The translations under genes and the position numbers were made by a program. Shown here one piece after another: positions 1,365 through 14,710 of a stretch of DNA of 37,281 bases. The notes beneath the pieces were generated by a model that did not search any database, was not told where the DNA came from, and saw only the letters and a list, made by a program, of their open reading frames with translations. Origin of the DNA: an uncultured Subdoligranulum sp. (GTDB lineage Bacteria > Bacillota_A > Clostridia > Oscillospirales > Ruminococcaceae); contig NZ_CALADU010000087.1 of NCBI RefSeq assembly GCF_937890665.1, positions 1 to 37,281 on the forward strand. The letters run 5' to 3'. Positions within the stretch are counted from its first letter, which is position 1. The number at the start of each line of letters is the position of its first letter.

Positions 1365-2777
1365 GTGCTGGAAAAAAACCAACGTTACAAAAGTATACTC
1401 AGCGGATTGCTGGATGCCGCACTTCTGTTTGTCGGCTTTTTGCTGGCCAACTATGTGCGCTTCAACTATGTCCGCTTTTTTGAACCGGGCGGTGCCGGTC
1501 CGGCGCTGGATGTGGCGCGGGACCCCCGCAACATTTTGGCCGGGGTGGCTACGTCGCTGCTGCTGGTAGTTGCCTATTGGGTGGCAGGGATTTACAGCAA
1601 TTCTCGGCTTCATGGCTTGTCGGAGCGCTGCACCCGTATTGCCATCATCAACGGCGGCGGCATTTTAGGGTTCGTATTTATCCTTTACCTGCTCCATTTG
1701 GACGATTACTCCCGTGTGGTATTGGGCCTGTTCTACTTCTTTGCCACCGTGTTGGTAGTTGCCAAGCGGATGATCCGCCGTTGGTACGACCGTGCCCGCC
1801 GCCGCAAGGGGCTGGGGCTGCGGCATATCCTGCTGGTGGGCGGCGGCAAATCGGCGGCCCTCTACCTGCGGGCACTGGAACACAATCCTTACTACGGTTT
1901 TGTGGTGGACGGGTATCTGGCACCGATGGAGGAGCCGGGGTTGGGCGTGCCCTACTTTGGCAGCTATGACAAGCTGGACGAATGTTTGGAAAGCCCCCTT
2001 GTGGATGAAGTGGTGGTGGCGTTGGAAGCCGACGAAATTCAGATGCTGCCCCACACCTTTGCTGCCTGCGATAAGCATGGTACGCGCATCACCATGGTGC
2101 CTTTTTACAGCGATTATCTGCCCGCACGTCCCACCATCGACGTGCTGGATGAGTGCAAGCTCATCAATGTGCGGCAGACCCCCTTTGACAACATATTGAA
2201 CGCCGCCGTTAAGCGGGGGTTGGATATTGTGGGCAGTTTGGTGCTCATCGTGCTGACCAGCCCGGTGATGTTGGTCACGGCCATCGGCGTTAAGCTGTCT
2301 AGCCCCGGACCGGTGATTTTCCGGCAGGAGCGCATCGGCTTGAACAAGAAGCCCTTTATGATGTATAAGTTCCGTTCCATGCGGGTCAATGCCAAGCAGG
2401 AAACGGGCTGGTCCACCGACTATGATCCCCGCAAGACGCGGTTCGGCAGTCTGATCCGCAAGTTTAGTCTGGATGAACTGCCCCAGTTCTTCAATGTACT
2501 GAAAGGGGATATGTCCTTGGTGGGCCCACGGCCTGAAGTGCCCTTCCATGTAGAGCACTTCAAGGAGGAGATCCCGCGGTATCTGGTGCGCCAGCAGGTG
2601 CGCCCCGGCTGTACCGGCTGGGCGCAGATCCATGGTCTGCGGGGCGACACCGACATTGCGGAGCGTATCCGCTATGATATCTGGTATATCGAAAACTGGA
2701 CCGTGGCACTGGATATCAAGATCATCTTCCGCACGGTATTCGGCGGCAAGATGATCAACGACGAAAAATTACAGTGA
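1365..2777 (+). CDS. Polyprenyl-phosphate sugar-1-phosphate transferase (WcaJ/CpsE type), priming glycosyltransferase
   Basis: This 470-residue membrane protein starts the glycan by moving a sugar-1-phosphate from a nucleotide sugar to undecaprenyl phosphate at the inner face of the membrane. Four N-terminal membrane helices lie at about 11-133. A Rossmann-like CoA_binding_3 domain follows (HILLVGGGKSAALY, about 154-167). A further helix at about 286-308 leads into the bacterial sugar transferase domain, which has the family motifs KFRSMR (335-340), DELPQ (370-374) and GDMSLVGPRP (381-390). The length is typical of the WcaJ/CpsE group. The GTG start at 1365 is chosen because AAGGGAGGG lies at 1348-1356. 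The sugar cannot be read from the sequence; Glc or Gal is usual. It is first in a six-gene operon. Confidence 0.93.
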   Translation: MLEKNQRYKSILSGLLDAALLFVGFLLANYVRFNYVRFFEPGGAGPALDVARDPRNILAGVATSLLLVVAYWVAGIYSNSRLHGLSERCTRIAIINGGGILGFVFILYLLHLDDYSRVVLGLFYFFATVLVVAKRMIRRWYDRARRRKGLGLRHILLVGGGKSAALYLRALEHNPYYGFVVDGYLAPMEEPGLGVPYFGSYDKLDECLESPLVDEVVVALEADEIQMLPHTFAACDKHGTRITMVPFYSDYLPARPTIDVLDECKLINVRQTPFDNILNAAVKRGLDIVGSLVLIVLTSPVMLVTAIGVKLSSPGPVIFRQERIGLNKKPFMMYKFRSMRVNAKQETGWSTDYDPRKTRFGSLIRKFSLDELPQFFNVLKGDMSLVGPRPEVPFHVEHFKEEIPRYLVRQQVRPGCTGWAQIHGLRGDTDIAERIRYDIWYIENWTVALDIKIIFRTVFGGKMINDEKLQ

Positions 2778-2802
2778 TCCCACTGGAAACCGGGTGAGAG
2801 TT

Positions 2803-3957
2803 ATGAGCAAGACCGAACCGAAAGTTGCCATTGTGCATGACTGGCTGGTGACCTATGCCGGGGCGGACCGCGTGGTGGATTGTATGCACCATGTGTTTCC
2901 CAACGCGGTGATTTATACACTGGTCTATGATGAAAAAAAGATGCCAGCGTGGTTCAAGGACTATGACATCCGCACCACCTGGGTGCAGAAGCTGCCCTTT
3001 GCTACCAAGCTGTATAAAAGTCTGTTGCCGTTGATGCCCGGGGCGTTTGAGGCGCTGGACCTGTCGGAGTACGATCTGGTCCTGTCGTCGTCGTCGTCCT
3101 GCTCCAAGGGGGTCATCACACGGCCCGATGCGGTACATATCTGTTATTGCCATACGCCGATCCGGTATGTGTGGGATTTTTATTATACCTATCGGGACAA
3201 TGCCAACTGGCTGGTACGGGCGGTGATGCCGCATCAGATGCACAAGATGCGCATTTGGGATAAATGTGCCGCTGATCGGGTGGACTATTTTATCGCCAAT
3301 TCGCATTATATCGCCCAGCGCATCAAAAAATATTATCGCCGGGACAGCGATGTGATTTATCCTTGCTGCCATATCAATGAGGCTCCTTTCGTCAAGAAAG
3401 AGGACTTCTATCTGGTGGTAGGACGCCTGACTTGGTATAAGCGCATCGATCTGGCAGTGGCGGCCTGCACCAAGCTGGGCAAGCGGCTGGTGGTCATCGG
3501 CGGCGGCAGCGAGGAAGGAAAACTCAAATCCATTGCCGGTCCTACCATCGAATTCAAGGGTGGCGGTTTGAGCGACGAAGAGGTGCGCAGCTATTATCTG
3601 CGTGCCAAAGCGTTCCTCTTCCCCGGCGAGGAGGACTTCGGCATCACGCCGGTAGAAGCCCAATCGGCAGGAACGCCGGTGTTGGCCTATGGCCGGGGCG
3701 GCGCCTGCGAAACGGTGCTGCCGGGCAAGACCGGTTATTGGTTCCATGAGCAGACGGTTGAGAGCCTGATGCGCTGCATGGAACTGTTTGAACGGGACGG
3801 CGTGGCGTATACCAAAGAAGAAATTCGAGACCATAGCCGTTCTTTCAGCGAGGAACGGTTTGAAAACGAGCTGCGCGACTATTGCGCCCGTCGTATGGCA
3901 GACTGGAAACAGGAACTGCTGGACTGCTCCCACTGGGATAAGGAGGAACTGGATTGA
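2803..3957 (+). CDS. GT4-family glycosyltransferase
   Basis: A cytoplasmic GT-B-fold glycosyltransferase of 384 residues from ATG 2803. The N-terminal half contains VAIVHDWLVTYAGADRVV, the usual start of this retaining GT4 branch. The C-terminal nucleotide-sugar site carries the EX7E-type motif EEDFGITPVEA and then the glycine-rich AYGRGGACETV. An in-frame GTG at 2794 is possible, but GGGTGAG just before ATG 2803 fits better as a ribosome binding site. It probably adds the second or a later sugar of the lipid-linked unit. The stop overlaps the next gene by four bases, so the two are translationally coupled. Confidence 0.9.
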   Translation: MSKTEPKVAIVHDWLVTYAGADRVVDCMHHVFPNAVIYTLVYDEKKMPAWFKDYDIRTTWVQKLPFATKLYKSLLPLMPGAFEALDLSEYDLVLSSSSSCSKGVITRPDAVHICYCHTPIRYVWDFYYTYRDNANWLVRAVMPHQMHKMRIWDKCAADRVDYFIANSHYIAQRIKKYYRRDSDVIYPCCHINEAPFVKKEDFYLVVGRLTWYKRIDLAVAACTKLGKRLVVIGGGSEEGKLKSIAGPTIEFKGGGLSDEEVRSYYLRAKAFLFPGEEDFGITPVEAQSAGTPVLAYGRGGACETVLPGKTGYWFHEQTVESLMRCMELFERDGVAYTKEEIRDHSRSFSEERFENELRDYCARRMADWKQELLDCSHWDKEELD

Positions 3958-5006
3958 ACCCCATCGTCATCAACGGCACCGTGCTGTGCGATAATATTAC
4001 CGGTATTCCGCGCTATGTGTACGAGACGGTTACCCGGTTGGACGCCTTGCTGGAAGGTACCGGCCTTGATGTGCGGATCGCCTACCGGGACGACGGGCGG
4101 CCCATCCATCTGCCTAAGCTGAAAAACATCCAGCTAGTTCCCCTGAAAGCCGTCAAGTACTTTTACAATATGGCGGTATTGCCGGCTTATCTGCGGCGCA
4201 ACCATGCGTTTTTTGTGGGGTTGGCCAGTGATATGCTGATGACCCGCCGCAGCGTAGTGGTGCTGCACGATATTCGCCCGCTGGTCATGGATACAGACCG
4301 GGGCTTTTTCCGGTTTAAGTTCTGGGTACATTGCCTGTCTACCAAATGGTTTGCCCAAAAGGTGTATACCGTCAGTGAAGACCAACGCCGTCTGATTAGC
4401 AAAAAGCTCCGTATTCCCATGGACAAGATCGGTGTGACCTACAATGGGTGGGAGCATATGCGCAAGGTGGTCCCCGATGAGGGAATCTTTGACAAGCTGC
4501 CCGGGGTTACCAAAGGCGAATATTTTTATGCATTGGGAAGCCTCGCCAAGCACAAAAACTTCCAATGGATCCGCGAAGTGGCCCGTCGGAATCCTGACAA
4601 AACCTTTGTGGTGGCAGGCGGCAAGGACTTGCGGGCCTTCGGGGATGATACACAGGCGAAAGATACCGATAATGTGTTTTACCCCGGCTATGTCAGCGAT
4701 GAGGAAAATGCGGCCCTGATGCAGCATTGCAAGCTGTTTTTGCACCCGGCCATTTTTGAAGGGTTTGGAATCCCGCCGCTGGAGGCGCTCTCGCTGGGGG
4801 CACCCATTGCGCTGGCACGGGCGAGCTGCCTGCCGGAACTCTACGGGGATACTGCCCGTTATTTTGATCCTTATGACTACGACGTAGATCTGGATGCATT
4901 GGCGGCTCAGCCGGTGGCGCCGCCGGATGCTGTACTCGAAAAATACAGCTGGGATAAAACAGCCGCCTTCTGGTTGGAACAGATTCAAAAATACGCGCAG
5001 GAATGA
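3954..5006 (+). CDS. GT4-family glycosyltransferase (second)
   Basis: A 350-residue GT-B glycosyltransferase. The C-terminal donor-binding half has FLHPAIFEGFGIPPLEALSL, containing the EX7E motif, followed by SCLPELYGDTARYFDP, which is typical of mannosyl- or rhamnosyl-transferase-like GT4 enzymes. The N-terminal segment GIPRYVYETVTRL is the usual acceptor-side opening. The start is TTG 3954 within a TTGA overlap with the previous gene, supported by AAGGAGG at about 3940-3946. Donor and acceptor cannot be assigned. It is unrelated in detail to its neighbour, so the two are not a recent duplication. Confidence 0.9.
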   Translation: MNPIVINGTVLCDNITGIPRYVYETVTRLDALLEGTGLDVRIAYRDDGRPIHLPKLKNIQLVPLKAVKYFYNMAVLPAYLRRNHAFFVGLASDMLMTRRSVVVLHDIRPLVMDTDRGFFRFKFWVHCLSTKWFAQKVYTVSEDQRRLISKKLRIPMDKIGVTYNGWEHMRKVVPDEGIFDKLPGVTKGEYFYALGSLAKHKNFQWIREVARRNPDKTFVVAGGKDLRAFGDDTQAKDTDNVFYPGYVSDEENAALMQHCKLFLHPAIFEGFGIPPLEALSLGAPIALARASCLPELYGDTARYFDPYDYDVDLDALAAQPVAPPDAVLEKYSWDKTAAFWLEQIQKYAQE

Positions 5007-5060
5007 CGGATATTTTCTGTACAGAATGTATTTTGCGCAAGGGAAAGAGGACAGGCAACC

Positions 5061-7460
5061 ATGTGGATTCTGGCGTTTCCGGTGACCGCGCTCCTCGCGG
5101 GGGCCGCGGGAGTGGCACCGGCATGGCTGGCACACCGTAAAGCGTGCCGAAGGGATCTGGTCTGGGCGGTAGGTCTATGGCTGGCCGTCTGGCTGTTTTG
5201 CCTGTGTGCTTACCATCGCCCCGGACTGACGATTGGCTTTGATGCGTTCCGTCTGGCGGCTATGGCGGCGCTTACTTTGTGGGCAGGAGCTTGCACCGCA
5301 GGACTGCGGCTTTTGGGGCGCAAAGGGGCGCGGGCAGTGCTGCCGCTGCTGTTGGTGGTGGCGGTAGGCGCGGAGTTGTTTGTATGCAATATCGCCTATT
5401 TTAACACCCATAGTTATAAGCCCTTCCAGCTTATGGACTATCTGGACCCCAACATCAATGTGGGGCGGGGAAATGGGAGCTGGTCTTTGGACGAAAAACG
5501 CCCCTATCTCCGTTTTCTGGAGATCAACCAGCCCATCTACAACCTGCATCTGGACAATCTTACCAACGATGATCCGGACCCGCTCCATGCTGACAGCACC
5601 TTTACCTTTGATGTGGGCGCTACCGACGAGGCCAATGGCGCATTGAACGGCTTTGGCACGTGGGATGTGGCTGTACAGGCGGAGAGGACCCAAACCATCA
5701 GTCTGGACATGACCGGGCAGGTGGGGACGTTGACTCTCAAGGCGCATGCCTACGGCACCACCTATGCCCAGTACCCGCTGGCCTTTACCATTACAGGTAT
5801 TACAGCCAACACGCCGCGCCCGCTGCAATGGTCGTGGCTTCGCATGTTGGCGATATGGCTGATACTGGGAGCTTTGTATCTGCTGCGTCCTCACAGTGGT
5901 TTGTGGCAGCGACGCTGGCTGGCCGGCAATCTGTGTGATCGCGGAGCAGCAGTTGTGTTGGGCGTGATCTTGGCAGCCTTTGTGGTCACCGTGCCTTTTT
6001 GGGAACCGACCAATTCTGGGCTGGCCACATCCTTCTATAATACTGCCAGCTGGGATGGGGAGAGTGCTATCACCTTTTCCTATCAACAGTATGGTGCGCT
6101 GGCGCACAGTTTGCTGAACGGGCGACTGGATTTGGAAGCGGATCCGCCCGCGGAATTGATCGCCATGGACAATCCTTATGACGCCACGGCTCGGGACGCG
6201 ATGGGGCTGCAGGGCGTGCTATGGGATCATGTCTACTATCAGGGACGGTATTATGTTTATTTTGGCATCGTACCGTGTCTGTTGTTCCAACTGCCCTTTG
6301 AAGCCATTACCGGCATTCAGAACTTGGCGTGTGCCCCTTGTATGGTCATTTTGGGGCTGGTGTTCCTGCTTAGCTGCTTCGGCATTATGGGACAGGTCAT
6401 CCGCCGGTGGTTCCCCGCGACGCCTACGGCTGCGTATCTGCTGTGTACCGCCGCGCTGGTTTTGGGTAGTCAGCTCTATGTGCTGCTGGAACGTCCTTTT
6501 ATCTATGAATATGCCATTGTCTGTGGGGCGGCTTTGCTAATGCTGGGTCTGTGGCTGTGGCTGGCGGCTGCCGCTACACCCGTGGAGCACGGCGGTGTGC
6601 TGACATTGCGGCTGACGCTGGGAAGCTTGTGTGTGGCGTTGGTTGCGGGATGCCGCCCGCAGATGGAACTGTTTGCACTGCTGGCTTTGCCGATTTTCTG
6701 GCATCGATATGGAACCCAGCGTCGGCTTTTCAGCCGGGCCGGTGTGCGGGAGGCTGTGGCCTTTTTGCTGCCGGTTGTGTTGGTAGCCGCGGGGCTGATG
6801 TGGTACAACTATGCCCGCTTTGGCTCGCCCTTTGATTTCGGTGCCAACTATAATATCACCGGCAACGATATGACCAAACGCGGCTTCAATGTGGTGCGCA
6901 TTGGTCCGGCGATTTTTACCAGCTTGTTGGATCCGCCGCGGTTGAGTGGTATCTTCCCGTATCTATCGGAAACGGAGGTACAGACCAACGCACTGATTCA
7001 TACCATCAGTGAACGATTTGCCGGGGGAATGTTGGCTTCTACGCCTTTTACATGGGCGCTTTTGCTGCCGGTAGTTCCTTTGGCGCGGCGCAGCTTGCAT
7101 CGTCGCCGGGGCGCGGCGGCAGTGGTTTATGGCTCTGTGGCGGCTATGCTGCTTATCACGGTAGTAGATTGCCAGATGGCCGGGGTTTTGTACCGATACC
7201 TAATGGATTATAGCCCCGTTTTGCTGCTGGGAGCGGCGCTGTGTTGGCTGTTGGCCGATACGGCACTGGCTCGCCGTGCCGAACAGGGGGAGACGCTGGC
7301 GGTTTCTCTGCTGCCCGTTTTGCGGATGGCCATGGTGGCTGCAGCGGCTTGGAGCGTTTTCTACCGGTTCAGTACCTTGTTTGCGATGGAACCGTGGCTG
7401 CGGGGATTGAATCCCTCGCTGTACTACACGGTCAACCGTTTGGTTCAATTCTGGATGTAA
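5061..7460 (+). CDS. Large multi-span membrane protein, GT-C-like, surface-glycan operon
   Basis: A 799-residue integral membrane protein. Helices are visible at about 1-20, 33-52, 62-82 and 91-112. A hydrophilic segment of about 145 residues (113-257), probably outside the cell and beta-rich, follows. Many further helices run to the C-terminus. The motifs YYQGRYYVYFGIVPCLL (about 392-408) and WYNYARFGSPFDFG recur, as I recall, in uncharacterised Firmicutes membrane proteins of glycan loci. The overall plan resembles polyprenyl-sugar-dependent GT-C enzymes, but I see no defined catalytic motif. It could be a GT-C transferase, a polymerase or a glycan-modifying enzyme. It lies between two glycosyltransferase genes, 54 bases after the first. 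Confidence 0.7.
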   Translation: MWILAFPVTALLAGAAGVAPAWLAHRKACRRDLVWAVGLWLAVWLFCLCAYHRPGLTIGFDAFRLAAMAALTLWAGACTAGLRLLGRKGARAVLPLLLVVAVGAELFVCNIAYFNTHSYKPFQLMDYLDPNINVGRGNGSWSLDEKRPYLRFLEINQPIYNLHLDNLTNDDPDPLHADSTFTFDVGATDEANGALNGFGTWDVAVQAERTQTISLDMTGQVGTLTLKAHAYGTTYAQYPLAFTITGITANTPRPLQWSWLRMLAIWLILGALYLLRPHSGLWQRRWLAGNLCDRGAAVVLGVILAAFVVTVPFWEPTNSGLATSFYNTASWDGESAITFSYQQYGALAHSLLNGRLDLEADPPAELIAMDNPYDATARDAMGLQGVLWDHVYYQGRYYVYFGIVPCLLFQLPFEAITGIQNLACAPCMVILGLVFLLSCFGIMGQVIRRWFPATPTAAYLLCTAALVLGSQLYVLLERPFIYEYAIVCGAALLMLGLWLWLAAAATPVEHGGVLTLRLTLGSLCVALVAGCRPQMELFALLALPIFWHRYGTQRRLFSRAGVREAVAFLLPVVLVAAGLMWYNYARFGSPFDFGANYNITGNDMTKRGFNVVRIGPAIFTSLLDPPRLSGIFPYLSETEVQTNALIHTISERFAGGMLASTPFTWALLLPVVPLARRSLHRRRGAAAVVYGSVAAMLLITVVDCQMAGVLYRYLMDYSPVLLLGAALCWLLADTALARRAEQGETLAVSLLPVLRMAMVAAAAWSVFYRFSTLFAMEPWLRGLNPSLYYTVNRLVQFWM

Positions 7461-7481
7461 AGAAAAAGGGAGGACCCGTTT

Positions 7482-8420
7482 ATGGATAAAATTGCTGTTT
7501 TGATCCCCTGTTATAATGAGGCAAAAACGGTAGAAAAGGTAGTGACCGATTTCCGGCGTGTGCTGCCGGAGGCAACAATTTATGTCTATGACAACAACTC
7601 CACCGACGGTACCGCAGAGTTGGCGGCAAAAGCCGGCGCCGTGGTACGGCACGAGTATCAGCAAGGCAAGGGCAACGTTATGCGGCGGATGTTCCGAGAG
7701 ATCGAAGCCGAAGCCTATGTGCTGGTAGATGGCGATGACACCTATCCGGCGGAGGCAGCCCCCGAAATGGTGGCGGCGGTAACCCAGCGGCAGGCAGATA
7801 TGGTGGTGGGGGACCGGCTTTCCAGCACCTACTACACCCAGAATAAACGTCCGTTTCACAACTTTGGCAACGACTTGGTACGCTTTTGCACCAACCATCT
7901 GTTCGGCGGCAAAATCAAGGACATCATGACTGGGTACCGCGCCTTCAGCTACCAGTTTGTCAAAACTTATCCGGTGCTCTCTCGAGGGTTTGAAATCGAG
8001 ACCGAGATGACCATCCATGCTTTGCAGCGCAATATGCAGGTGGATAATGTGGTCATCGAATATCGGGACCGCCCGGAAGGATCGGAAAGTAAACTCAATA
8101 CCTATTCCGACGGCTTCAAGGTGTTGGGAACGATTCTGCGCCTTTTCAAAAATTACCGGCCCTTCGCCTTCTTTGGGGTGTTGGCCGCTGTATTGGCCGT
8201 GTTGGGTGTTGCCTTTATGGTGCCGGTGCTCAACGAGTATTTCCACACCGGGCTGGTACCTCGTTTCCCCACGCTGATTGTTTGCTGCTTTGTTTTGGTG
8301 GCGGCCTTGCTGCTCTTTATCTCGGGGGTAATTCTCTCCAGCCAGTTGGCCAAAGACGCGCGGGACTTTGAATTTCAACTGCAAACCGTGCAGCATTGGC
8401 AGCGCACGGACGAAGAGTAA
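7482..8420 (+). CDS. GT2-family glycosyltransferase, DPM1/GtrB-like with two C-terminal membrane helices
   Basis: A 312-residue protein with an N-terminal GT-A domain: IAVLIPCYNEAKTVEKVV at the start, DNNSTDGT for nucleotide binding, and the metal-binding VDGDDTYP. Two hydrophobic segments lie at the C-terminus (about 228-250 and 263-288). This plan fits polyisoprenyl-phosphate glycosyltransferases, which make undecaprenyl-phosphate sugars as donors for GT-C enzymes at the outer membrane face. That would give the preceding 799-residue protein its donor. GGGAGGA lies seven bases before the ATG. The partnership is inferred from adjacency only. Confidence 0.9.
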   Translation: MDKIAVLIPCYNEAKTVEKVVTDFRRVLPEATIYVYDNNSTDGTAELAAKAGAVVRHEYQQGKGNVMRRMFREIEAEAYVLVDGDDTYPAEAAPEMVAAVTQRQADMVVGDRLSSTYYTQNKRPFHNFGNDLVRFCTNHLFGGKIKDIMTGYRAFSYQFVKTYPVLSRGFEIETEMTIHALQRNMQVDNVVIEYRDRPEGSESKLNTYSDGFKVLGTILRLFKNYRPFAFFGVLAAVLAVLGVAFMVPVLNEYFHTGLVPRFPTLIVCCFVLVAALLLFISGVILSSQLAKDARDFEFQLQTVQHWQRTDEE

Positions 8421-8452
8421 GAAGGAAGATCGTATTCTAGGAGGAAACCGTC

Positions 8453-9559
8453 ATGTATGACTATCTGATTGTGGGGGCCGGGTTGTTTGGCGCGGTATTT
8501 GCCCACGAAGCAACGCAGGCGGGAAAGCGGTGCCTTGTCATCGACAAGCGGGACCATATCGCCGGTAATATCTATACCGAGAACATCGAGGGAATTGCTG
8601 TGCATCGCTACGGCGCGCATATTTTCCATACCAACAATAAGGAAGTGTGGGATTACGTCAACCGGTTTGCGGTGTTCAACCGATATACCAACTCTCCGGT
8701 GGCTAACTATAAGGGTGAGCTGTATAACATGCCCTTCAACATGAACACCTTCCATGCCATGTGGGGGGTCATCACGCCGGCACAGGCGCAGGCGAAAATC
8801 GAGGAGCAGCGCGCCGCCCACTATACGCCCAATCCCCAAAATTTGGAAGAACAGGCCATCAATCTGGTGGGCATGGATATCTACGAAAAGCTCATCAAAG
8901 GCTATACCGAAAAACAGTGGGGTCGGCCTTGTACGGCGCTGCCTGCCTTCATCATCAAGCGGCTGCCGGTGCGCTTTACCTTTGACAACAACTATTTCAA
9001 TGCGCTGTATCAGGGCATTCCCAACGAGGGGTACACTGCACTGGTTGCCAACTTGCTGCAAGGCATCGAAGTGCGTCTCAACACCGACTATCTGGCCGAT
9101 CGGGCGGAGCTGGATGCCTTGGCCCGCAAGGTGGTGTACACGGGGCCCATCGATGCCTATTTTGGCTATCAGCTGGGAGCTTTGCAGTATCGCAGCGTGC
9201 GGTTTGAAACCGAAACGTTGGATATGCCCAACTATCAAGGCAATGCCGTCGTGAACTATACGGATGCCGAGACGCCCTACACGCGCATTATCGAGCACAA
9301 ACACTTTGTGTTCGGTTCCACCGAACCGGGTACCAAAACGGTAATCAGCCGAGAATATTCGGCGGAGTGGAAACCCGGCGATGAACCCTATTATCCCGTC
9401 AACGACGAGGCCAATGGGGCGTTGTATGCCCGGTACAAAGAACTGGCGGACGCACAGCCCCGTGTGTTGTTTGGCGGTCGTCTGGGTGAGTACAAATACT
9501 ACGACATGGATCGTGTCATTGAGGTGGCGTTGGAACGAGTACGCGCCGAATTGGCCTAA
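8453..9559 (+). CDS. glf: UDP-galactopyranose mutase
   Basis: A flavoenzyme that converts UDP-galactopyranose to UDP-galactofuranose, the donor for galactofuranose-containing glycans. The 368-residue length is normal. The N-terminus has the FAD-binding YLIVGAGLFGAVFAHEA, then VIDKRDHIAGNIYTE and YGAHIFHTNNKEVW, all hallmark Glf segments. The conserved C-terminal signature FGGRLGEYKYYDMD is also present. AGGAGGAAA precedes the ATG. As the last gene of the glycan operon it suggests that the polymer contains galactofuranose and that one of the local transferases uses it. Confidence 0.96.
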   Translation: MYDYLIVGAGLFGAVFAHEATQAGKRCLVIDKRDHIAGNIYTENIEGIAVHRYGAHIFHTNNKEVWDYVNRFAVFNRYTNSPVANYKGELYNMPFNMNTFHAMWGVITPAQAQAKIEEQRAAHYTPNPQNLEEQAINLVGMDIYEKLIKGYTEKQWGRPCTALPAFIIKRLPVRFTFDNNYFNALYQGIPNEGYTALVANLLQGIEVRLNTDYLADRAELDALARKVVYTGPIDAYFGYQLGALQYRSVRFETETLDMPNYQGNAVVNYTDAETPYTRIIEHKHFVFGSTEPGTKTVISREYSAEWKPGDEPYYPVNDEANGALYARYKELADAQPRVLFGGRLGEYKYYDMDRVIEVALERVRAELA

Positions 9560-9673: not shown

Positions 9674-9741
9674 AATCTAGTATATCGCTGCGCCGCATGC
9701 AAGGTGCAGTGACTTGTGGGAAAGATAAAGGGAGAAATATT

Positions 9742-10398
9742 ATGACCAAAATTGCCGCATCGATTCTCTCGGCAGATTTTGCCAATTTGCAGCAGGATTG
9801 CACCCGTCTGTTGAACGAAGGCGTGGACTTGCTGCACTTCGACGTGATGGATGGGCACTTCGTACCCAACATCAGCTACGGCGCGCCGGTATTGACCAGC
9901 CTGCATGCAGCCCTGCCCGACGTGTATTATGATGTTCACCTGATGATCAGCGACCCGGCACGGTACGCCGCTGATTTTGCCAAGGCGGGTGCCAACCTGA
10001 TCACCTTCCATCTGGAGGCTGTTCCCAATACGGCGGAGGAGGTTATCGCTGCGATTCGGGCCACCGGCTGTCAGGTGGGATTGAGCATTCGTCCCGGCAC
10101 CCCGGTAGAAGCGGCGTTCCCCTATCTAGACGTGGTGGATCTCATCCTTGTGATGAGCGTGGAACCGGGCTTTGGCGGTCAAAAATTCCTGCCGGCTACC
10201 CCGCAGCGGTTGGCTGCCTTGGATGCAGAGCGCAAACGTCGGGGCTGCACGACCTTGTTGGAGGTAGACGGCGGCATCAATGCCGAGACCGGTCCGCTTT
10301 GCGTACAGGCCGGTGCCGACTGGTTGGTGGCCGGTAATTCGTTGTTCCGCGCAGCGGACCCCACCGCCATGGTACGTCTGCTTCACGGCCAAGCCTGA
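9742..10398 (+). CDS. rpe: Ribulose-phosphate 3-epimerase
   Basis: A TIM-barrel enzyme of the pentose phosphate pathway that interconverts D-ribulose 5-phosphate and D-xylulose 5-phosphate. From ATG 9742 it has 218 residues, the usual size. It starts with KIAASILSADFANL and contains LLHFDVMDGHFVPNISYG (metal and catalytic Asp), HLMI, the phosphate-binding VMSVEPGFGGQKF and EVDGGINAET, and ends with AGNSLFRA. An in-frame start 45 bases upstream is rejected because AAAGGGAGA lies directly before 9742. It is the first gene of a seven-gene operon. Its link to the membrane genes downstream is not obvious. Confidence 0.96.
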   Translation: MTKIAASILSADFANLQQDCTRLLNEGVDLLHFDVMDGHFVPNISYGAPVLTSLHAALPDVYYDVHLMISDPARYAADFAKAGANLITFHLEAVPNTAEEVIAAIRATGCQVGLSIRPGTPVEAAFPYLDVVDLILVMSVEPGFGGQKFLPATPQRLAALDAERKRRGCTTLLEVDGGINAETGPLCVQAGADWLVAGNSLFRAADPTAMVRLLHGQA

Positions 10399-10424: not shown

Positions 10425-11447
10425 ATGCCCAACCATATGAAAATTGAGCACAGCGAAAACTACGATTACTATCGTGACCTGCTGTGGTGTGCCGTCCCGC
10501 TGGCCGGGATGGCATGGTATTACTATGGCCCGCGTCCGGTGCTTTTGTTGTTGGCCGGATTGCTTACAGCCTATCTGTGTGACTGCGCGTTGGCACCGCT
10601 GCACGGGGCGGGGTATCATCCCCATGAACCGTCCAGCGAGTGCTTTGCGGCACTGATCGTTTTGATGATGCCGGCCACCGTGCCCTATGCGGTGGTGGTA
10701 GCAGCGGTCATTGCGGCCGTACTCGTCAAGGAAGCCTTCGGCGGTGAGGGACACTATCCCTTCCATCCGGCGGCGGTAGGCATGGCGGTGGCGGGAATCT
10801 CGTGGCCCGGCAGCGTATACAGCTATCCTACCCCCGGCAGTTGGCTGCCGGTGTTCGGCAGCATAACCGATGTGACGATGAACGAAGGAATGAACGCTAC
10901 CCTGCGGGATGGCGGTCTGCCCAGTGCCAGCACGATGAATCTGTTGACCGGCAACGTGCCGGGCGGACTTGGAACCAGTGCCATTCTGGTTATTGTAGCT
11001 TGTGGTCTGTTTTTGTTGGTAAGGGGACATGTTAAGACCACCGTGTTGGTTCCGTTCCTGATTTTCTGCATTGGGTTGCCGTGGCTGTTGCCCCAGCTCA
11101 ATGAGCTGCCTGTATTCAGCTGGCCCTGGGAATTTATCCGCCAGCGCATTTATCTGGAAAAATACGTCATTCTCTCGGGAACGGTGCTGTTTGGCGGCCT
11201 GTTCCTGATCTGTGAACCCGTTACTATGCCCAACCGCACCAGCAGCCGAATTTTGTATGGTGCAGCGCTGGGTATTGCCACCCATGCGTTCCGCGTGTTC
11301 AGCCCCTACGAAAGTGCAGTCTGTTTCGCACTGCTGATCGTGAGCGCCATCCCCGAATGGCTGGATTTGGTCAGCCACCGCACCGAGCGTATCCGCTTTA
11401 TGAGGAAGGAGGAACGGCGCCTTGCCCAATTCACAAAACCGGAATAA
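10425..11447 (+). CDS. RnfD/NqrB-family membrane subunit, divergent
   Basis: A 340-residue polytopic protein of the RnfD/NqrB/RsxD family. Family signatures are GGEGHYPFHPAAVGMAV (canonical form roughly GGxGxxxFNPAxVGxA), LLTGNVPGGLGTSA and LICEPVTMPN. In true Rnf complexes this subunit carries FMN bound through a Thr in an S/T-GAT motif well before the LxLGN segment. Here the only candidate is SAST, about five residues before LLTGN, so covalent flavinylation is doubtful. The gene follows rpe by 26 bases with AAAGGAG at about 10406-10412. Its 3' end overlaps the next gene by 26 bases. The usual rnfC, rnfG and rnfB neighbours are missing from the operon. Confidence 0.85.
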   Translation: MPNHMKIEHSENYDYYRDLLWCAVPLAGMAWYYYGPRPVLLLLAGLLTAYLCDCALAPLHGAGYHPHEPSSECFAALIVLMMPATVPYAVVVAAVIAAVLVKEAFGGEGHYPFHPAAVGMAVAGISWPGSVYSYPTPGSWLPVFGSITDVTMNEGMNATLRDGGLPSASTMNLLTGNVPGGLGTSAILVIVACGLFLLVRGHVKTTVLVPFLIFCIGLPWLLPQLNELPVFSWPWEFIRQRIYLEKYVILSGTVLFGGLFLICEPVTMPNRTSSRILYGAALGIATHAFRVFSPYESAVCFALLIVSAIPEWLDLVSHRTERIRFMRKEERRLAQFTKPE

Positions 11448-12777
11448 CCGCCGCAAGCAGCGTAAAGGGGAATCCGAAACGCTGATCATTCCCCATATTA
11501 CCAAAGAAATGCTGGAAAAGGCCCGCACTATGGCGGAGAGCGGGGCATCCAGCGCCGAGATTGAGCAGGCCATTGCCCAGATGCAGGCTGCGCAGAACCG
11601 CACAACGCCCCCTCCTGCGCAGGAAACCACATCGGAAGGGGAACCACATCGGATCATTCCCACCAGTCGGCCTCGTTATACTGAGGAAGAACGCAAAGCT
11701 CTGTTGGAGCAGATGCAGCAAGAGCAGGAACAGAAGCAGGCGGAACGGCGTGCGGAAGCCACCCGTCGGACAGAACGTCAGGCTTGGAAGATTCCCACGC
11801 CGAAGGCACCCCGCGTATTGAACCGTCCAGCCGCCTCCGTGCGTCCGACGGAACCGGAAGCCGAACCGCCGAAAACGGAGGCACAGCCGCAGCCTTCTCA
11901 GCCCCAGCCTTCTCAGCCCCAGCCTTCTCAGCCGGTGGCAGAGGAGCCGACCCGGACGGTGACCCTGAACCAGCCTGCGGCGTCGGTGGAAGAACCTACC
12001 CGCACGATGGAACCGCCCCGCCCGGCAGCACCCAAGCCAGCGGCGAAGCAACCTGCCGTGTCCGAGACACCCTCGCAACCTGCCCCGGCGGCTGTGTCCA
12101 AACGGCAGGCAGGGCTGCTGCACAACCGTGCCGAGGCAGAGGCACGCCTCAAAGAAAAAATCCGCAGCGATCATATTTGGCTTTCCAACCCGGTGATGGT
12201 ACGTGGTCTGGGCTTGGCGCCTGTGGTAGGGGCTGCGTTGGACGGCGAACGGGCGTTGATGCTCTGTTTGGCCTGTCTGCTGCTGATTACCTTTACCCGC
12301 GTTTTCGCCGTGGCGATCTGCCATCTCACCGGCAACCGCTTTCGGCCGGCGATTTATTGCTATACCGCAGCGGTTTTGTACATCCCTGTGTATACGTTGC
12401 TGTACAATCTATTCGGCAACGACCTGTCCATATTGGGCATCTATCTGCCGATTCTGGTGGCAGAGCCCGCAATTGTCAAACGAATGGAATTTACCGAACT
12501 GGAACCGGTTCGGGATGCACTCCGCCATGGCTTCAACAACGGTATTGGCATGTGCGTAGCGCTGCTGATCGTGGGTTGTCTGCGAGAGCTGTTGGGATCG
12601 GGTGCGCTGTTCGGCCATGCGGTTCTGAGCACGGCTCCGTTGCCTTTGGCCTCCCAGCCGGCAGGCGGATTTGTTCTGTTAGGTGTGATCGCTGCAGTGT
12701 GGTGTGCGGTCGCCAATGCCTACACCGACTATAAGCAGGAGGAGGTGCGCCGTCTGTATGCCGATCGCAAACATTGA
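11422..12777 (+). CDS. RnfE/NqrD-like membrane protein fused to a long disordered N-terminal region
   Basis: A 451-residue protein, about twice the normal RnfE length. Residues 1-250 are charged, then Pro/Gln/Ala-rich and disordered, with coiled-coil-like KALLEQMQQEQEQKQ and three QPQPS repeats. Residues 254-445 form the membrane domain, starting LSNPVMVRGLGLAPVVGAA and ending near YKQEEVRRLYADRKH. Canonical RnfE/NqrD reads roughly NPVFVLVLGMCPTLAVT and IPLIVVNCIILGRAE, with one Cys in each half binding a [2Fe-2S] cluster. Here those positions are Ala266 and Pro349 (LPILVAEPAIVKRMEF). Other cysteines exist but elsewhere. The TTG start at 11422 is supported by AAGGAGG at 11406-11412. The 3' end overlaps the RnfA-like gene by 20 bases. 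Confidence 0.8.
   Translation: MPNSQNRNNRRKQRKGESETLIIPHITKEMLEKARTMAESGASSAEIEQAIAQMQAAQNRTTPPPAQETTSEGEPHRIIPTSRPRYTEEERKALLEQMQQEQEQKQAERRAEATRRTERQAWKIPTPKAPRVLNRPAASVRPTEPEAEPPKTEAQPQPSQPQPSQPQPSQPVAEEPTRTVTLNQPAASVEEPTRTMEPPRPAAPKPAAKQPAVSETPSQPAPAAVSKRQAGLLHNRAEAEARLKEKIRSDHIWLSNPVMVRGLGLAPVVGAALDGERALMLCLACLLLITFTRVFAVAICHLTGNRFRPAIYCYTAAVLYIPVYTLLYNLFGNDLSILGIYLPILVAEPAIVKRMEFTELEPVRDALRHGFNNGIGMCVALLIVGCLRELLGSGALFGHAVLSTAPLPLASQPAGGFVLLGVIAAVWCAVANAYTDYKQEEVRRLYADRKH
11884..11928 (+). repeat. Three 15-bp tandem repeats encoding QPQPS
   Basis: Units at 11884-11898, 11899-11913 and 11914-11928 differ only by one synonymous base in the first copy. They lie in frame in the disordered part of the RnfE-like protein and may vary in number between strains. 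Confidence 0.9.
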
Positions 12778-13411
12778 GTGGTATCCCGTGCTGCGCGGCG
12801 CGCTGCAATTCATCAGCTATATGGGGCTGGCCATTTTTGCGGAAAACATTATTTTAGCCCGGGCACTGGGCGTTACCCGCTTACTGAAACTGGTCCCCGA
12901 CCATAAGGCCCCGGTTTGGGATTTCGGACTGCCGCTGATTTTGGTCATGGGGCTGTCTGCCCCGCTGGGGTGGGCCGCGCACAATCTGCTGTTCCCGTGG
13001 CTGCGGAACTATCTGCCGGCATGGCTGCCGATTTCGGCCCTGCGGCCGCTGGTGTATCTCAGCTGCGGCAGTGCAGCGATGATTGTCACATGGCTGTTGC
13101 TCTTTTTGTTGCCCCGCCGTCACCGGCAGGCTTGTCACAGCCAGCTTACCCTGACAGGGTTCAGCACGGCGGTGCTGGGCACACTGCTGATTTGTGCCAA
13201 CCAGAATTATACGATGCTGCAAAGCATTGCCTTTGGAATTGGCAGTGCCTTGGGCTATGTATTCATTATCTTTGTCGTGCGGGAAGGCCGTCGCCGTCTG
13301 CGCAGTAAAGACGTACCGGCAATCTTTCAGGGCTTGCCCAGTTCTTTGATTTACATCGGCATCTTGTCGCTGGCCATCTACGGGCTGGTGGGACATGCCG
13401 TCGTTCTGTAG
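12758..13411 (+). CDS. RnfA/NqrE-like membrane protein lacking the expected cluster cysteines
   Basis: A 217-residue protein with about six membrane helices, close to the normal RnfA/NqrE length. It begins LRGALQFISYMGLAIFAENI, followed by ILARALGVTRLL. Canonical RnfA reads about NFVLSQFLGICPFLG, so the first ligand Cys corresponds to Thr40. The second canonical segment TTNCAVLG corresponds to GFSTAVLG, with Thr137 replacing Cys; a Cys seven residues later (TLLIC) is not at the ligand position. ATG 12758 is preceded by AGGAGGAGGTG, and longer starts add a sequence that overlaps the upstream gene. It forms a D-E-A block with the two preceding genes. Confidence 0.82.
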   Translation: MPIANIEWYPVLRGALQFISYMGLAIFAENIILARALGVTRLLKLVPDHKAPVWDFGLPLILVMGLSAPLGWAAHNLLFPWLRNYLPAWLPISALRPLVYLSCGSAAMIVTWLLLFLLPRRHRQACHSQLTLTGFSTAVLGTLLICANQNYTMLQSIAFGIGSALGYVFIIFVVREGRRRLRSKDVPAIFQGLPSSLIYIGILSLAIYGLVGHAVVL

Positions 13412-13423
13412 GAGGCTTTTGCT

Positions 13424-14710
13424 ATGGCTCTGCCATGTTTTGTCGCTGCCGATATTCTGCTCCCCGCGGCAGGTACGCCGCTGGACCCGTGGGCCTGCAT
13501 TGCGGTAGACCAGTTTACCTCGCAGCCGGAATACTGGCAGCGTGCCGAGGCTCTCGCACAGGGAAAGCCCAGCACACTGCATATCGTTTTGCCCGAGGCG
13601 TATCTGGGCACTCCGCAGGAGGCAGACCGTCTGGAGAGCATCCGCCATACAATGGAAAACTACCGTGCCGAGGTCTTGACCCGGCAGGTACACGGCTATG
13701 TGTATGTGGAGCGCACCCAGATGGATGGCAGCATCCGGCAGGGCTTGGTAGGCGCAGTGGATCTGGAGGCCTATGACTATGCCTCCGGAACCAAACCGGC
13801 GATTCGCCCCAGCGAAAGTACGGTGGTGGAACGCATCCCACCGCGCTTGAAAGTGCGGCGTGGCGCGTTGTTGGAAACACCGCATGTGATGATGTTGGCA
13901 GACGATTCAAGCAAGACGCTTATTGAACCCATCGGTCTGCAAAAGGAGAAGCTGCCGCTTTTGTATGATGGGGAACTTATGCTGGGGGGCGGTCATCTTC
14001 GCGGCTGGGCCGTAGAAGATCCTGTGTACATTGCCCAGATTGACGCAGCCTTGGCAGCCTTGGCGGACCAAGCTGCCTTTGACCGCCGTTGGCCTGCCGC
14101 TGCGGGGCAAACACCCATGGTATTGGCGGTAGGGGATGGCAACCACAGTCTGGCTACGGCCAAAGCCTATTGGGAAGAACTGAAACCCACACTCACCGAG
14201 GAAGAACGGCAGCATCATCCGGCGCGCTGGTGTTTGGCGGAAGTCTGCAACGTCCACAGCCCGGCCATTGAGATTGAACCCATCCACCGGGTGGTATTTG
14301 GCGTTTCGGCGCAGGAGTTGTATGAGGCGTTGGACCGTTGGGATCAGGCGCAGGGCCGCCGTACCGAGCCGTCTGCCCAGCGTTGTAAGCTGGCCGACCG
14401 GCAGGGAGAAATCGAAGTGGCGCTGCAAAATCCGCCGGCGCCGCTGACGGTAGGCAGCGTGGAAGCCTTCTTAGAGGAATGGCTGCCTCAGCATCCCCAA
14501 GCGCATGTGGATTATATTCATGGCGCTTCCACCGCGTTGTCCTTGGCTGCCCGCCCCGGAACGCCCACCACAGCCATTTTGCTGCCGGATTTTGCGAAAG
14601 CAGATTTGTTCCGCGGTGTGGTGCTGGGTGGTGTGCTGCCGCGCAAGACCTTTAGCATGGGCCACGCAGAGGAAAAACGGTATTATAATGAATGCCGAGT
14701 CATCGGCTGA
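13424..14710 (+). CDS. DUF1015 family protein (COG4198)
   Basis: A 428-residue protein, the normal size for the DUF1015 family. Features are FVAADILLPAAGTPLDPWAC at the N-terminus, HLRGWAV in the middle, the strongly conserved VLAVGDGNHSLATAKAYWE, and KTFSMGHAEEKRYYNECR at the C-terminus. No biochemical function is established for the family that I can name. The start at ATG 13424 follows TAGGAGG, 12 bases after the RnfA-like stop, so the genes are co-transcribed. Whether it acts with the Rnf-like proteins is unknown. Confidence 0.9.
   Translation: MALPCFVAADILLPAAGTPLDPWACIAVDQFTSQPEYWQRAEALAQGKPSTLHIVLPEAYLGTPQEADRLESIRHTMENYRAEVLTRQVHGYVYVERTQMDGSIRQGLVGAVDLEAYDYASGTKPAIRPSESTVVERIPPRLKVRRGALLETPHVMMLADDSSKTLIEPIGLQKEKLPLLYDGELMLGGGHLRGWAVEDPVYIAQIDAALAALADQAAFDRRWPAAAGQTPMVLAVGDGNHSLATAKAYWEELKPTLTEEERQHHPARWCLAEVCNVHSPAIEIEPIHRVVFGVSAQELYEALDRWDQAQGRRTEPSAQRCKLADRQGEIEVALQNPPAPLTVGSVEAFLEEWLPQHPQAHVDYIHGASTALSLAARPGTPTTAILLPDFAKADLFRGVVLGGVLPRKTFSMGHAEEKRYYNECRVIG

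Follow-up and report, generated by a model that had tools for sequence, protein, structure and literature searches.

An Rnf-descended RnfD-E-A trio with loss of intramembrane [2Fe-2S] ligands in an uncultured Subdoligranulum and its relatives

What can the membrane core of an Rnf complex do once the cysteines that hold its intramembrane [2Fe-2S] cluster are gone? The question is raised by three adjacent genes in a 37,281-nucleotide stretch of DNA from an uncultured Subdoligranulum sp. (contig NZ_CALADU010000087.1), here called the window, which encode RnfD-, RnfE- and RnfA-like proteins. A structural study proposes the RnfA/RnfE cluster as the gate that couples electrons to Na+ (PMC11889175; this and the other papers cited are represented here by excerpts), and a natural family with the RnfA/RnfE fold and part of the ion path, but no cluster, is a test of which parts move the ion and which gate it. 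A sequence-only reading of the window had described the trio as an Rnf core that lost all four cluster ligands and was repurposed for something other than electron transfer. The genes and ligand positions are as follows.

10425..11447, + strand: RnfD-like subunit, 340 amino acids (PF03116, 148.8 bits)
11422..12777, + strand: RnfE-like subunit, 451 amino acids (PF02508 at residues 249-423, 91.7 bits)
12157-12774, + strand: membrane part of the RnfE-like subunit, about residues 246-451
12217..12219, + strand: RnfE-like Ala266, replacing the first RnfE cluster cysteine (alignments, codon check)
12466..12468, + strand: RnfE-like Pro349, replacing the second RnfE cluster cysteine (alignments, codon check)
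12758..13411, + strand: RnfA-like subunit, 217 amino acids (PF02508, 65.7 bits)
12875..12877, + strand: RnfA-like Thr40, replacing the first RnfA cluster cysteine (alignments, codon check)
13166..13168, + strand: RnfA-like Thr137, replacing the second RnfA cluster cysteine (alignments, codon check)

Loss of the cluster ligands and of the electron-carrying partners

The homology of the three proteins and their canonical D, E, A order, both asserted by the sequence-only reading, are borne out by Pfam, since all three score above the gathering scores of PF03116, PF02508 and PF02508, respectively. Their NCBIfam scores all fall below cut-off (rnfD, TIGR01946, 99 of 207 bits; rnfE, 70 of 213; rnfA, 64 of 229). 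The start codons of the RnfE-like gene (TTG at 11422) and the RnfA-like gene (ATG at 12758) match the ends of homologues, and the residue numbers given by that reading are therefore correct.

The ligand columns were read by phmmer alignment to the RnfA, RnfE, NqrD and NqrE chains of 9eri, 8ahx, 7xk3 and 7zc6. Ala266 and Pro349 of the RnfE-like protein and Thr40 and Thr137 of the RnfA-like protein lie opposite the [2Fe-2S] cysteines, which are RnfA C25/C113 and RnfE C25/C108 in A. woodii (PMC11889175) and RnfA C25/C113 and RnfE C26/C109 in Clostridium tetanomorphum (PMC9588780). Re-alignment with canonical proteins from related genomes returned the same residues (Ala and Pro at RnfE sites 1 and 2, Thr at both RnfA sites), so that structure-based and multiple alignments agree with the earlier assignment and no cysteine of the window proteins occupies a ligand column. 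Among the best 120 of 456 homologues of the RnfE-like protein, site 1 is Ala and site 2 is Pro in 120/120 each. For RnfA, the best 120 of 263 homologues have Cys at site 1 in 0/110 aligned sequences and at site 2 in 28/118; in a second list, the best 120 of 1697 matches, site 1 is Ser in all 120 and never Cys, while site 2 is Cys in 49 of the 119 aligned. Because the substitutions recur across these homologues, the ligand loss is not a matter of chance.

We surveyed 124 loci, grouped by RnfG alone: 32 of the Gemmiger type (the window and L001-L031), 69 other divergent loci and 23 canonical ones. The 101 D-E-A loci without RnfG retain none of the cluster cysteines (51 loci), one (48) or two (2), and none has three or four; those with RnfG have four in 22 cases and two in the remaining one. 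The cysteines left in the 101 loci stand at RnfA site 2 (45 loci) or RnfE site 1 (7 loci) and never at RnfA site 1 or RnfE site 2, and the two distant loci with two cysteines (L032, L033) combine RnfE site 1 with RnfA site 2. The claim that all four ligands are lost thus holds for the window and not for every relative: orthologues with cysteines, which the sequence-only reading had named as evidence that would speak against it, do exist, yet only with one or two. Because relatives retain one or two, the complete loss is best seen as the end of a graded one.

The losses go beyond what had been claimed. Profile searches found RnfG neither at the window locus nor at any of the 101 divergent loci. 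An RnfB-like gene, defined as an open reading frame (ORF) that carries two Cys motifs and lies no more than 1.5 kb downstream of the RnfA gene, was present at 0/101 RnfG-less loci (98 of them with more than 900 nucleotides of room) versus 20/23 canonical ones. Beside the window trio, profile and ORF searches of the locus found no RnfG, RnfB or RnfC. The flavin-binding columns of the RnfD-like protein in the window are these.

10764..10766, + strand: RnfD-like His114, column of A. woodii Asn123 (riboflavin site; alignments)
10887..10889, + strand: RnfD-like Gly155, column of the flavin mononucleotide (FMN)-attachment Thr156; local alignment ambiguous by 4 residues
11214..11216, + strand: RnfD-like Glu264, column of A. 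woodii Asp249 (riboflavin site; alignments)

The FMN-attachment column holds Thr in 23/23 canonical loci, in 8/69 other divergent loci and in 0/29 of the Gemmiger type. Its Gly in the window comes from the multiple alignment; one pairwise alignment sets Thr151 there, a residue unconserved in Gemmiger. The riboflavin columns of the divergent loci are better kept than the FMN one: at Asn123, 47/69 other divergent loci have Asn, and the Gemmiger type has His (26/29) or Asn (3/29); at Asp249, the former have Asp (48/69) or Glu (15/69), and the latter Glu (29/29). An RnfC-like gene accompanies 28/69 other divergent loci, always with both CxxCxxCxxxC ([4Fe-4S]) motifs (28/28); the GxGGxGFP motif for NADH and FMN occurs in 0/28 of these proteins versus 17/22 canonical RnfC. 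By profile search, no RnfC-like gene was found in the stretch read at 41/69 other divergent and 32/32 Gemmiger-type loci. Seven Gemmiger-type genomes each have one RnfC_N match above cut-off, located at the canonical operon; G005 has another, short match that does not reach the cut-off.

Electron transfer through RnfA/RnfE is very unlikely here. Because the RnfA/RnfE cluster ligands, RnfG, RnfB, RnfC and the FMN-attachment Thr of RnfD are all missing at the locus, we conclude from sequence that D-E-A is an Rnf-descended membrane complex predicted to be unable to carry electrons through the membrane in the way Rnf does. Cluster loss and repurposing, as proposed in the sequence-only reading, are accordingly well supported, while the ion or small-molecule transport that it offered as an example is an inference, taken up below.

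A locus on the canonical side also has a changed cluster site. L152:3212-7862 (G028:C9:69000-77500) encodes RnfC, D, RnfG, E and A, has the FMN-attachment Thr of RnfD and is placed among the canonical loci in the tree, yet has two of the four cluster cysteines, with Gly at RnfE site 2 and RnfA site 1; it possibly represents a second route to a changed cluster.

Ancestry, spread and selection

In a tree of E and A with the ligand columns masked, the 23 canonical rows lie on one side of a branch (Shimodaira-Hasegawa-like approximate likelihood ratio test, SH-aLRT, 99), apart from all 83 divergent rows, and the 14 Gemmiger-type rows form one group (SH-aLRT 99). Because one branch separates the canonical rows, a single origin of the divergent family fits. 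The RnfA-like protein of the window is 89% identical to that of Gemmiger formicilis An723, and the closest named relatives put the window, and with it the gut bacterium it comes from, in the Gemmiger group. Names among the homologues are Gemmiger, Subdoligranulum, Ruthenibacterium, Pygmaiobacter, Allofournierella, Faecalibacterium and Oscillospiraceae bacterium, with gene context read for part of them.

A normal rnf set elsewhere in the genome, the search for which had been suggested with the sequence-only reading, was found in all five Gemmiger genomes checked first (G001-G005, relatives of the window): a canonical PF02508 pair of 175-223 bits with four cysteines exists beside the D-E-A-type pair of 62-100 bits. 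Across 197 genomes of Gemmiger's GTDB family, 130 have at least four PF02508 matches, two have three, 27 a strong pair alone, 17 a weak pair alone, six a single weak match and 15 none. Thirty-seven genomes were checked at the level of single matches (20 from the group of 130 plus all 17 with weak pairs only), giving strong pairs of 185-236 bits and weak pairs of 41-112 bits; of the 37 weak pairs, 36 were readable as a single locus, in every case divergent and without RnfG. By match counts, a divergent second RnfA/RnfE pair occurs in up to 147/197 family genomes (17 where it stands alone and 130 that also have a strong pair, of which 20 were checked), a figure that extrapolates from checked to unchecked genomes and is qualified by G436, whose six matches include two strong pairs. 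In 149 genomes of the wider phylum, 80 have a PF02508 match and seven have at least four; at least two of the seven (G611, G624) have a second pair as strong as canonical ones, and the matches in G613 and G716 are all weak or middling. The divergent family is centred on Gemmiger's GTDB family and order. Because the stripped version mostly sits beside a normal Rnf, it probably has a different job.

The trio appears to evolve under purifying selection. In comparisons of the window with eight relatives, the ratio of nonsynonymous to synonymous substitution rates (dN/dS) is 0.05-0.13 for D, 0.07-0.14 for the last 235 residues of E and 0.06-0.15 for A, with dS of 0.8-1.7, near saturation. The trio also keeps its surroundings, which in the window are the following.

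9697..10398, + strand: rpe, ribulose-phosphate 3-epimerase, conserved upstream neighbour (PF00834, 219.7 bits)
13424..14710, + strand: DUF1015 gene, downstream neighbour in the Gemmiger clade (PF06245, 192.8 bits)

All five genes are on the + strand, with overlaps at D/E and E/A and short outer gaps. Given more than 1200 nucleotides of room, rpe lies upstream on the same strand in 29/29 Gemmiger-type and 61/64 other divergent loci versus 0/6 canonical ones (1/23 canonical loci overall, L155). A DUF1015 gene follows in 32/32 Gemmiger-type loci. A DUF4015 gene follows on the same strand in 51/64 other divergent loci with room and in 2/23 canonical ones, and a MecA-like gene lies upstream on the opposite strand in 39/69 other divergent loci. 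DUF4015 is a putative glycosyl hydrolase domain (for example L102:6175-7428, after the RnfA-like gene); by name it was found in a sporulation paper, as a legend mention only.

Two canonical loci from close relatives weigh against a strict tie of these neighbours to the divergent kind: L155 (G057), a four-cysteine rnf with RnfG, has rpe upstream and DUF4015 downstream, and L161 (G013), likewise with four cysteines and RnfG, has DUF4015 downstream. Their neighbourhoods therefore hint that the divergent complex arose in place from an rnf operon, L155 and L161 perhaps marking the ancestral site.

What the trio may do

In the proposal for A. woodii, the reduced RnfA/RnfE cluster pulls Na+ into a site formed by the backbones of RnfE V106 and RnfA T111, for which leucines and the ion pair RnfE R67-E115, together with RnfA E88, serve as gates (PMC11889175). 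Three residues of the RnfE-like protein in the window bear on this path.

12343..12345, + strand: RnfE-like Arg308, column of A. woodii RnfE Arg67 (Na+-path ion pair), kept
12463..12465, + strand: RnfE-like Glu348, column of RnfE Asn107, adjoining the lost cluster
12487..12489, + strand: RnfE-like Glu356, column of RnfE Glu115 (Na+-path ion pair), kept

RnfE Arg67 is kept in 88/101 divergent loci (59/69 other divergent, 29/32 Gemmiger type), RnfE Glu115 in 75/101 (43/69 and 32/32) and RnfA Asn112 in 84/101 (69/69 and 15/32). We ranked retention as percentiles among the columns whose identity across canonical proteins is 95% or higher. Asn112 stands at the 100th and Arg67 at the 87th percentile in the 69 other divergent loci, and the cluster cysteines RnfE C25, RnfE C108 and RnfA C25 at the 22nd, 2nd and 12th; in the Gemmiger type, Glu115 reaches the 100th. 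RnfE column 107 is Glu or Asp in 32/32 Gemmiger-type loci. The predicted single-chain models indicate that the fold of RnfA and RnfE is retained, and the helix breaks just before the ligand positions persist (RnfA-like residues 36-38 and 135-136, RnfE-like residues 262-264 and 347-348).

Because some Na+-path residues outlast most redox residues, we favour a decoupled cation-moving complex, giving about an even chance to the reading that D-E-A is a cation-moving or cation-coupled transporter freed from redox control. In canonical Rnf, the reduced cluster would draw Na+ into the buried RnfA/RnfE site, and alternating access would carry it across. In the divergent complex the redox gate would be gone, with RnfE Arg67 and Glu115 kept and the RnfE gating positions still hydrophobic; in the window's clade, the fixed carboxylate Glu348 adjoining the lost ligand could substitute for the negative charge of the cluster. 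More tentatively, a clade-wide Rnf-derived family in Oscillospiraceae and their relatives may have shed its entire path for electrons through the membrane, so that what was a Na+ pump driven by redox chemistry became a cation transporter working without it, the RnfE carboxylate of Gemmiger replacing the charge of the reduced cluster.

Several observations weigh against such a transporter. RnfA Glu88 is kept in only 4/69 other divergent and 0/32 Gemmiger-type loci and RnfA Thr111 in 0/69 and 1/32, and the window RnfA has Ser at column 112. Outside the Gemmiger type, only 12/69 divergent loci have Glu or Asp beside the cluster site. The ranks are also uneven: in the 69 other divergent loci Glu115, RnfA Leu108 and RnfA Cys113 stand at the 69th, 56th and 64th percentiles, and in the Gemmiger type Arg67 and Asn112 reach only the 64th. 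The neighbours rpe, DUF4015, DUF1015 and MecA give no hint of ion transport, and assembly of D, E and A into a complex is assumed from gene adjacency and homology.

Some redox chemistry could survive on the cytosolic side, with electrons running from a soluble donor through the [4Fe-4S] clusters of an RnfC-like protein and the riboflavin of RnfD to a target at or in the membrane, bypassing RnfA/RnfE. The invariant cluster motifs of the RnfC-like partners and the kept riboflavin columns (Asn in 47/69 other divergent loci, Asp or Glu in 63/69) speak for such a device; we nevertheless consider it unlikely, given that most divergent loci, among them all of the Gemmiger type, have no RnfC-like gene in the stretch read, that the single RnfC_N match above cut-off in each of the seven Gemmiger-type genomes belongs to the canonical operon, that GxGGxGFP is gone from the RnfC-like proteins and that the riboflavin columns of the window are His and Glu. 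Less probable still is an accessory role beside the cell's own canonical Rnf, in which D-E-A would borrow RnfB, RnfC and RnfG or regulate Rnf as an inactive partner. The two kinds do coexist widely, as at least four PF02508 matches occur in 130/197 family genomes and 20/20 of those checked pair a strong set (185-236 bits) with a weak one (at most 106 bits), but 17/197 genomes have the weak pair only, and G010 has weak PF02508 matches only and no FMN_bind match. G209 (L096) carries a divergent C-D-E-A set and is nearly closed, a single contig making up 1.94 Mb of its roughly 2.0 Mb. The E-type query matched it once at E<=1e-18, and neither FMN_bind nor RnfC_N matched at E<=0.001; it is a possible natural host without canonical Rnf. 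Such absences may reflect genes missed in draft genomes.

A structural or regulatory membrane scaffold without transport, which might, for instance, anchor the DUF4015 protein or the RnfE-like protein's own N-terminal arm, strikes us as slightly less probable again. The frequent downstream DUF4015 gene and the confidently predicted helices in the 245-residue arm of the window are what such a scaffold would draw on; set against them, 7/7 Gemmiger-type genomes searched have no PF13200 (DUF4015) match and all keep D-E-A, and, because a DUF4015 gene also follows the canonical rnf of L155 and of L161, this gene may be a long-standing neighbour and not a partner. The stepwise loss of cofactors and subunits resembles the decay of a non-functional Rnf copy. 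We hold decay to be very improbable, in view of dN/dS values of 0.05-0.15, the wide presence in the family, a synteny held across great sequence divergence, and reading frames that are open for E and A in 101/101 divergent loci and for D in 98; the three loci without a D match begin within E (L014, L023) or shortly before it (L018). That the trio is a real Rnf whose cysteines were misplaced by alignment is hardly credible. The RnfA-like proteins of relatives do have Cys adjoining a ligand column (for example CST, NSC), but pairwise, multiple and profile alignments concur, both RnfE sites are non-Cys in 120/120 of the best 120 of 456 homologues, and RnfG and RnfB are missing as well.

Relation to known systems and further features of the locus

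With Rnf (RnfABCDGE; A. woodii, Clostridium tetanomorphum) the trio shares sequence homology of D, E and A, the predicted fold of A and E, the relative gene order and the helix breaks at the ligand sites; it differs in having no four-cysteine cluster, no RnfG, RnfB or RnfC at the locus and no FMN-attachment Thr in RnfD. Because these defining cofactors are missing, we regard the trio as related to Rnf by descent and not as a member. The NqrBDE core of the Na+-translocating NADH:quinone oxidoreductase (Na+-NQR) is homologous too. That enzyme has been proposed to derive from a duplicated rnf in which rnfB was lost and RnfC became NqrA (PMC4014512); unlike the trio, it has retained NqrC and the intramembrane cluster and acquired NqrF, and at the window locus neither the Pfam annotation of 15 window genes nor the RnfG/NqrC-type search revealed NqrF, NqrC or NqrA beside the trio. 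The two-subunit NQR/RNF-like systems of Meheust et al. (PMC8238504, PMC10979944) resemble the trio in an RnfD-like protein that lost the FMN-attachment Thr (PMC10979944). In the excerpts of those papers, their RnfD-like part is fused to an NAD-binding domain and has an FMN-binding partner, whereas the window D matches PF03116 only (plus Dak1 below cut-off), with no PF00175 fusion by Pfam and no RnfG-type FMN-binding protein beside it, and the trio, unlike those systems, retains RnfE and RnfA. As the excerpts present them, Na+-NQR and the two-subunit systems both keep an electron path.

Our literature search found no published account of a cluster-less RnfA/RnfE. The genes may already be in print as a second rnf operon: rnfDEA of Faecalibacterium duncaniae A2-165 (CG447_09840-830), given in a transcriptome paper as one of two putative rnf operons and as NADH:ferredoxin oxidoreductase (PMC10781979), is, judging by the excerpt, probably the same gene trio. 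The sole Faecalibacterium sequence read, a protein of Faecalibacterium sp. named RnfA (P0324), has Ser in both ligand columns. This means that the second "rnf operons" of gut bacteria, including one that the excerpted text names as energy-conserving (PMC10781979), may encode something other than a ferredoxin:NAD oxidoreductase. Counting Rnf by gene name or by PF02508 can accordingly exaggerate energy conservation in this family.

A further feature of the window's RnfE-like protein is its N-terminal arm.

11422..12156, + strand: RnfE-like N-terminal extension, mostly of low confidence except for helices 28-60 and 88-120 (predicted model)

The arm is predicted to form a helical hairpin at residues 28-60 and a helix at 88-120, with predicted local distance difference test (pLDDT) values of 89-97 in blocks 31-60 and 91-110, and the length of the extension differs between homologues. 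The RnfD-like proteins of L028 and L030 instead end in a long C-terminal arm that has a similar short motif. Upstream of the trio, window positions 1365-9559 hold a polysaccharide cluster with a bacterial sugar transferase, two group-1 glycosyltransferases, one family-2 glycosyltransferase and a UDP-galactopyranose mutase.

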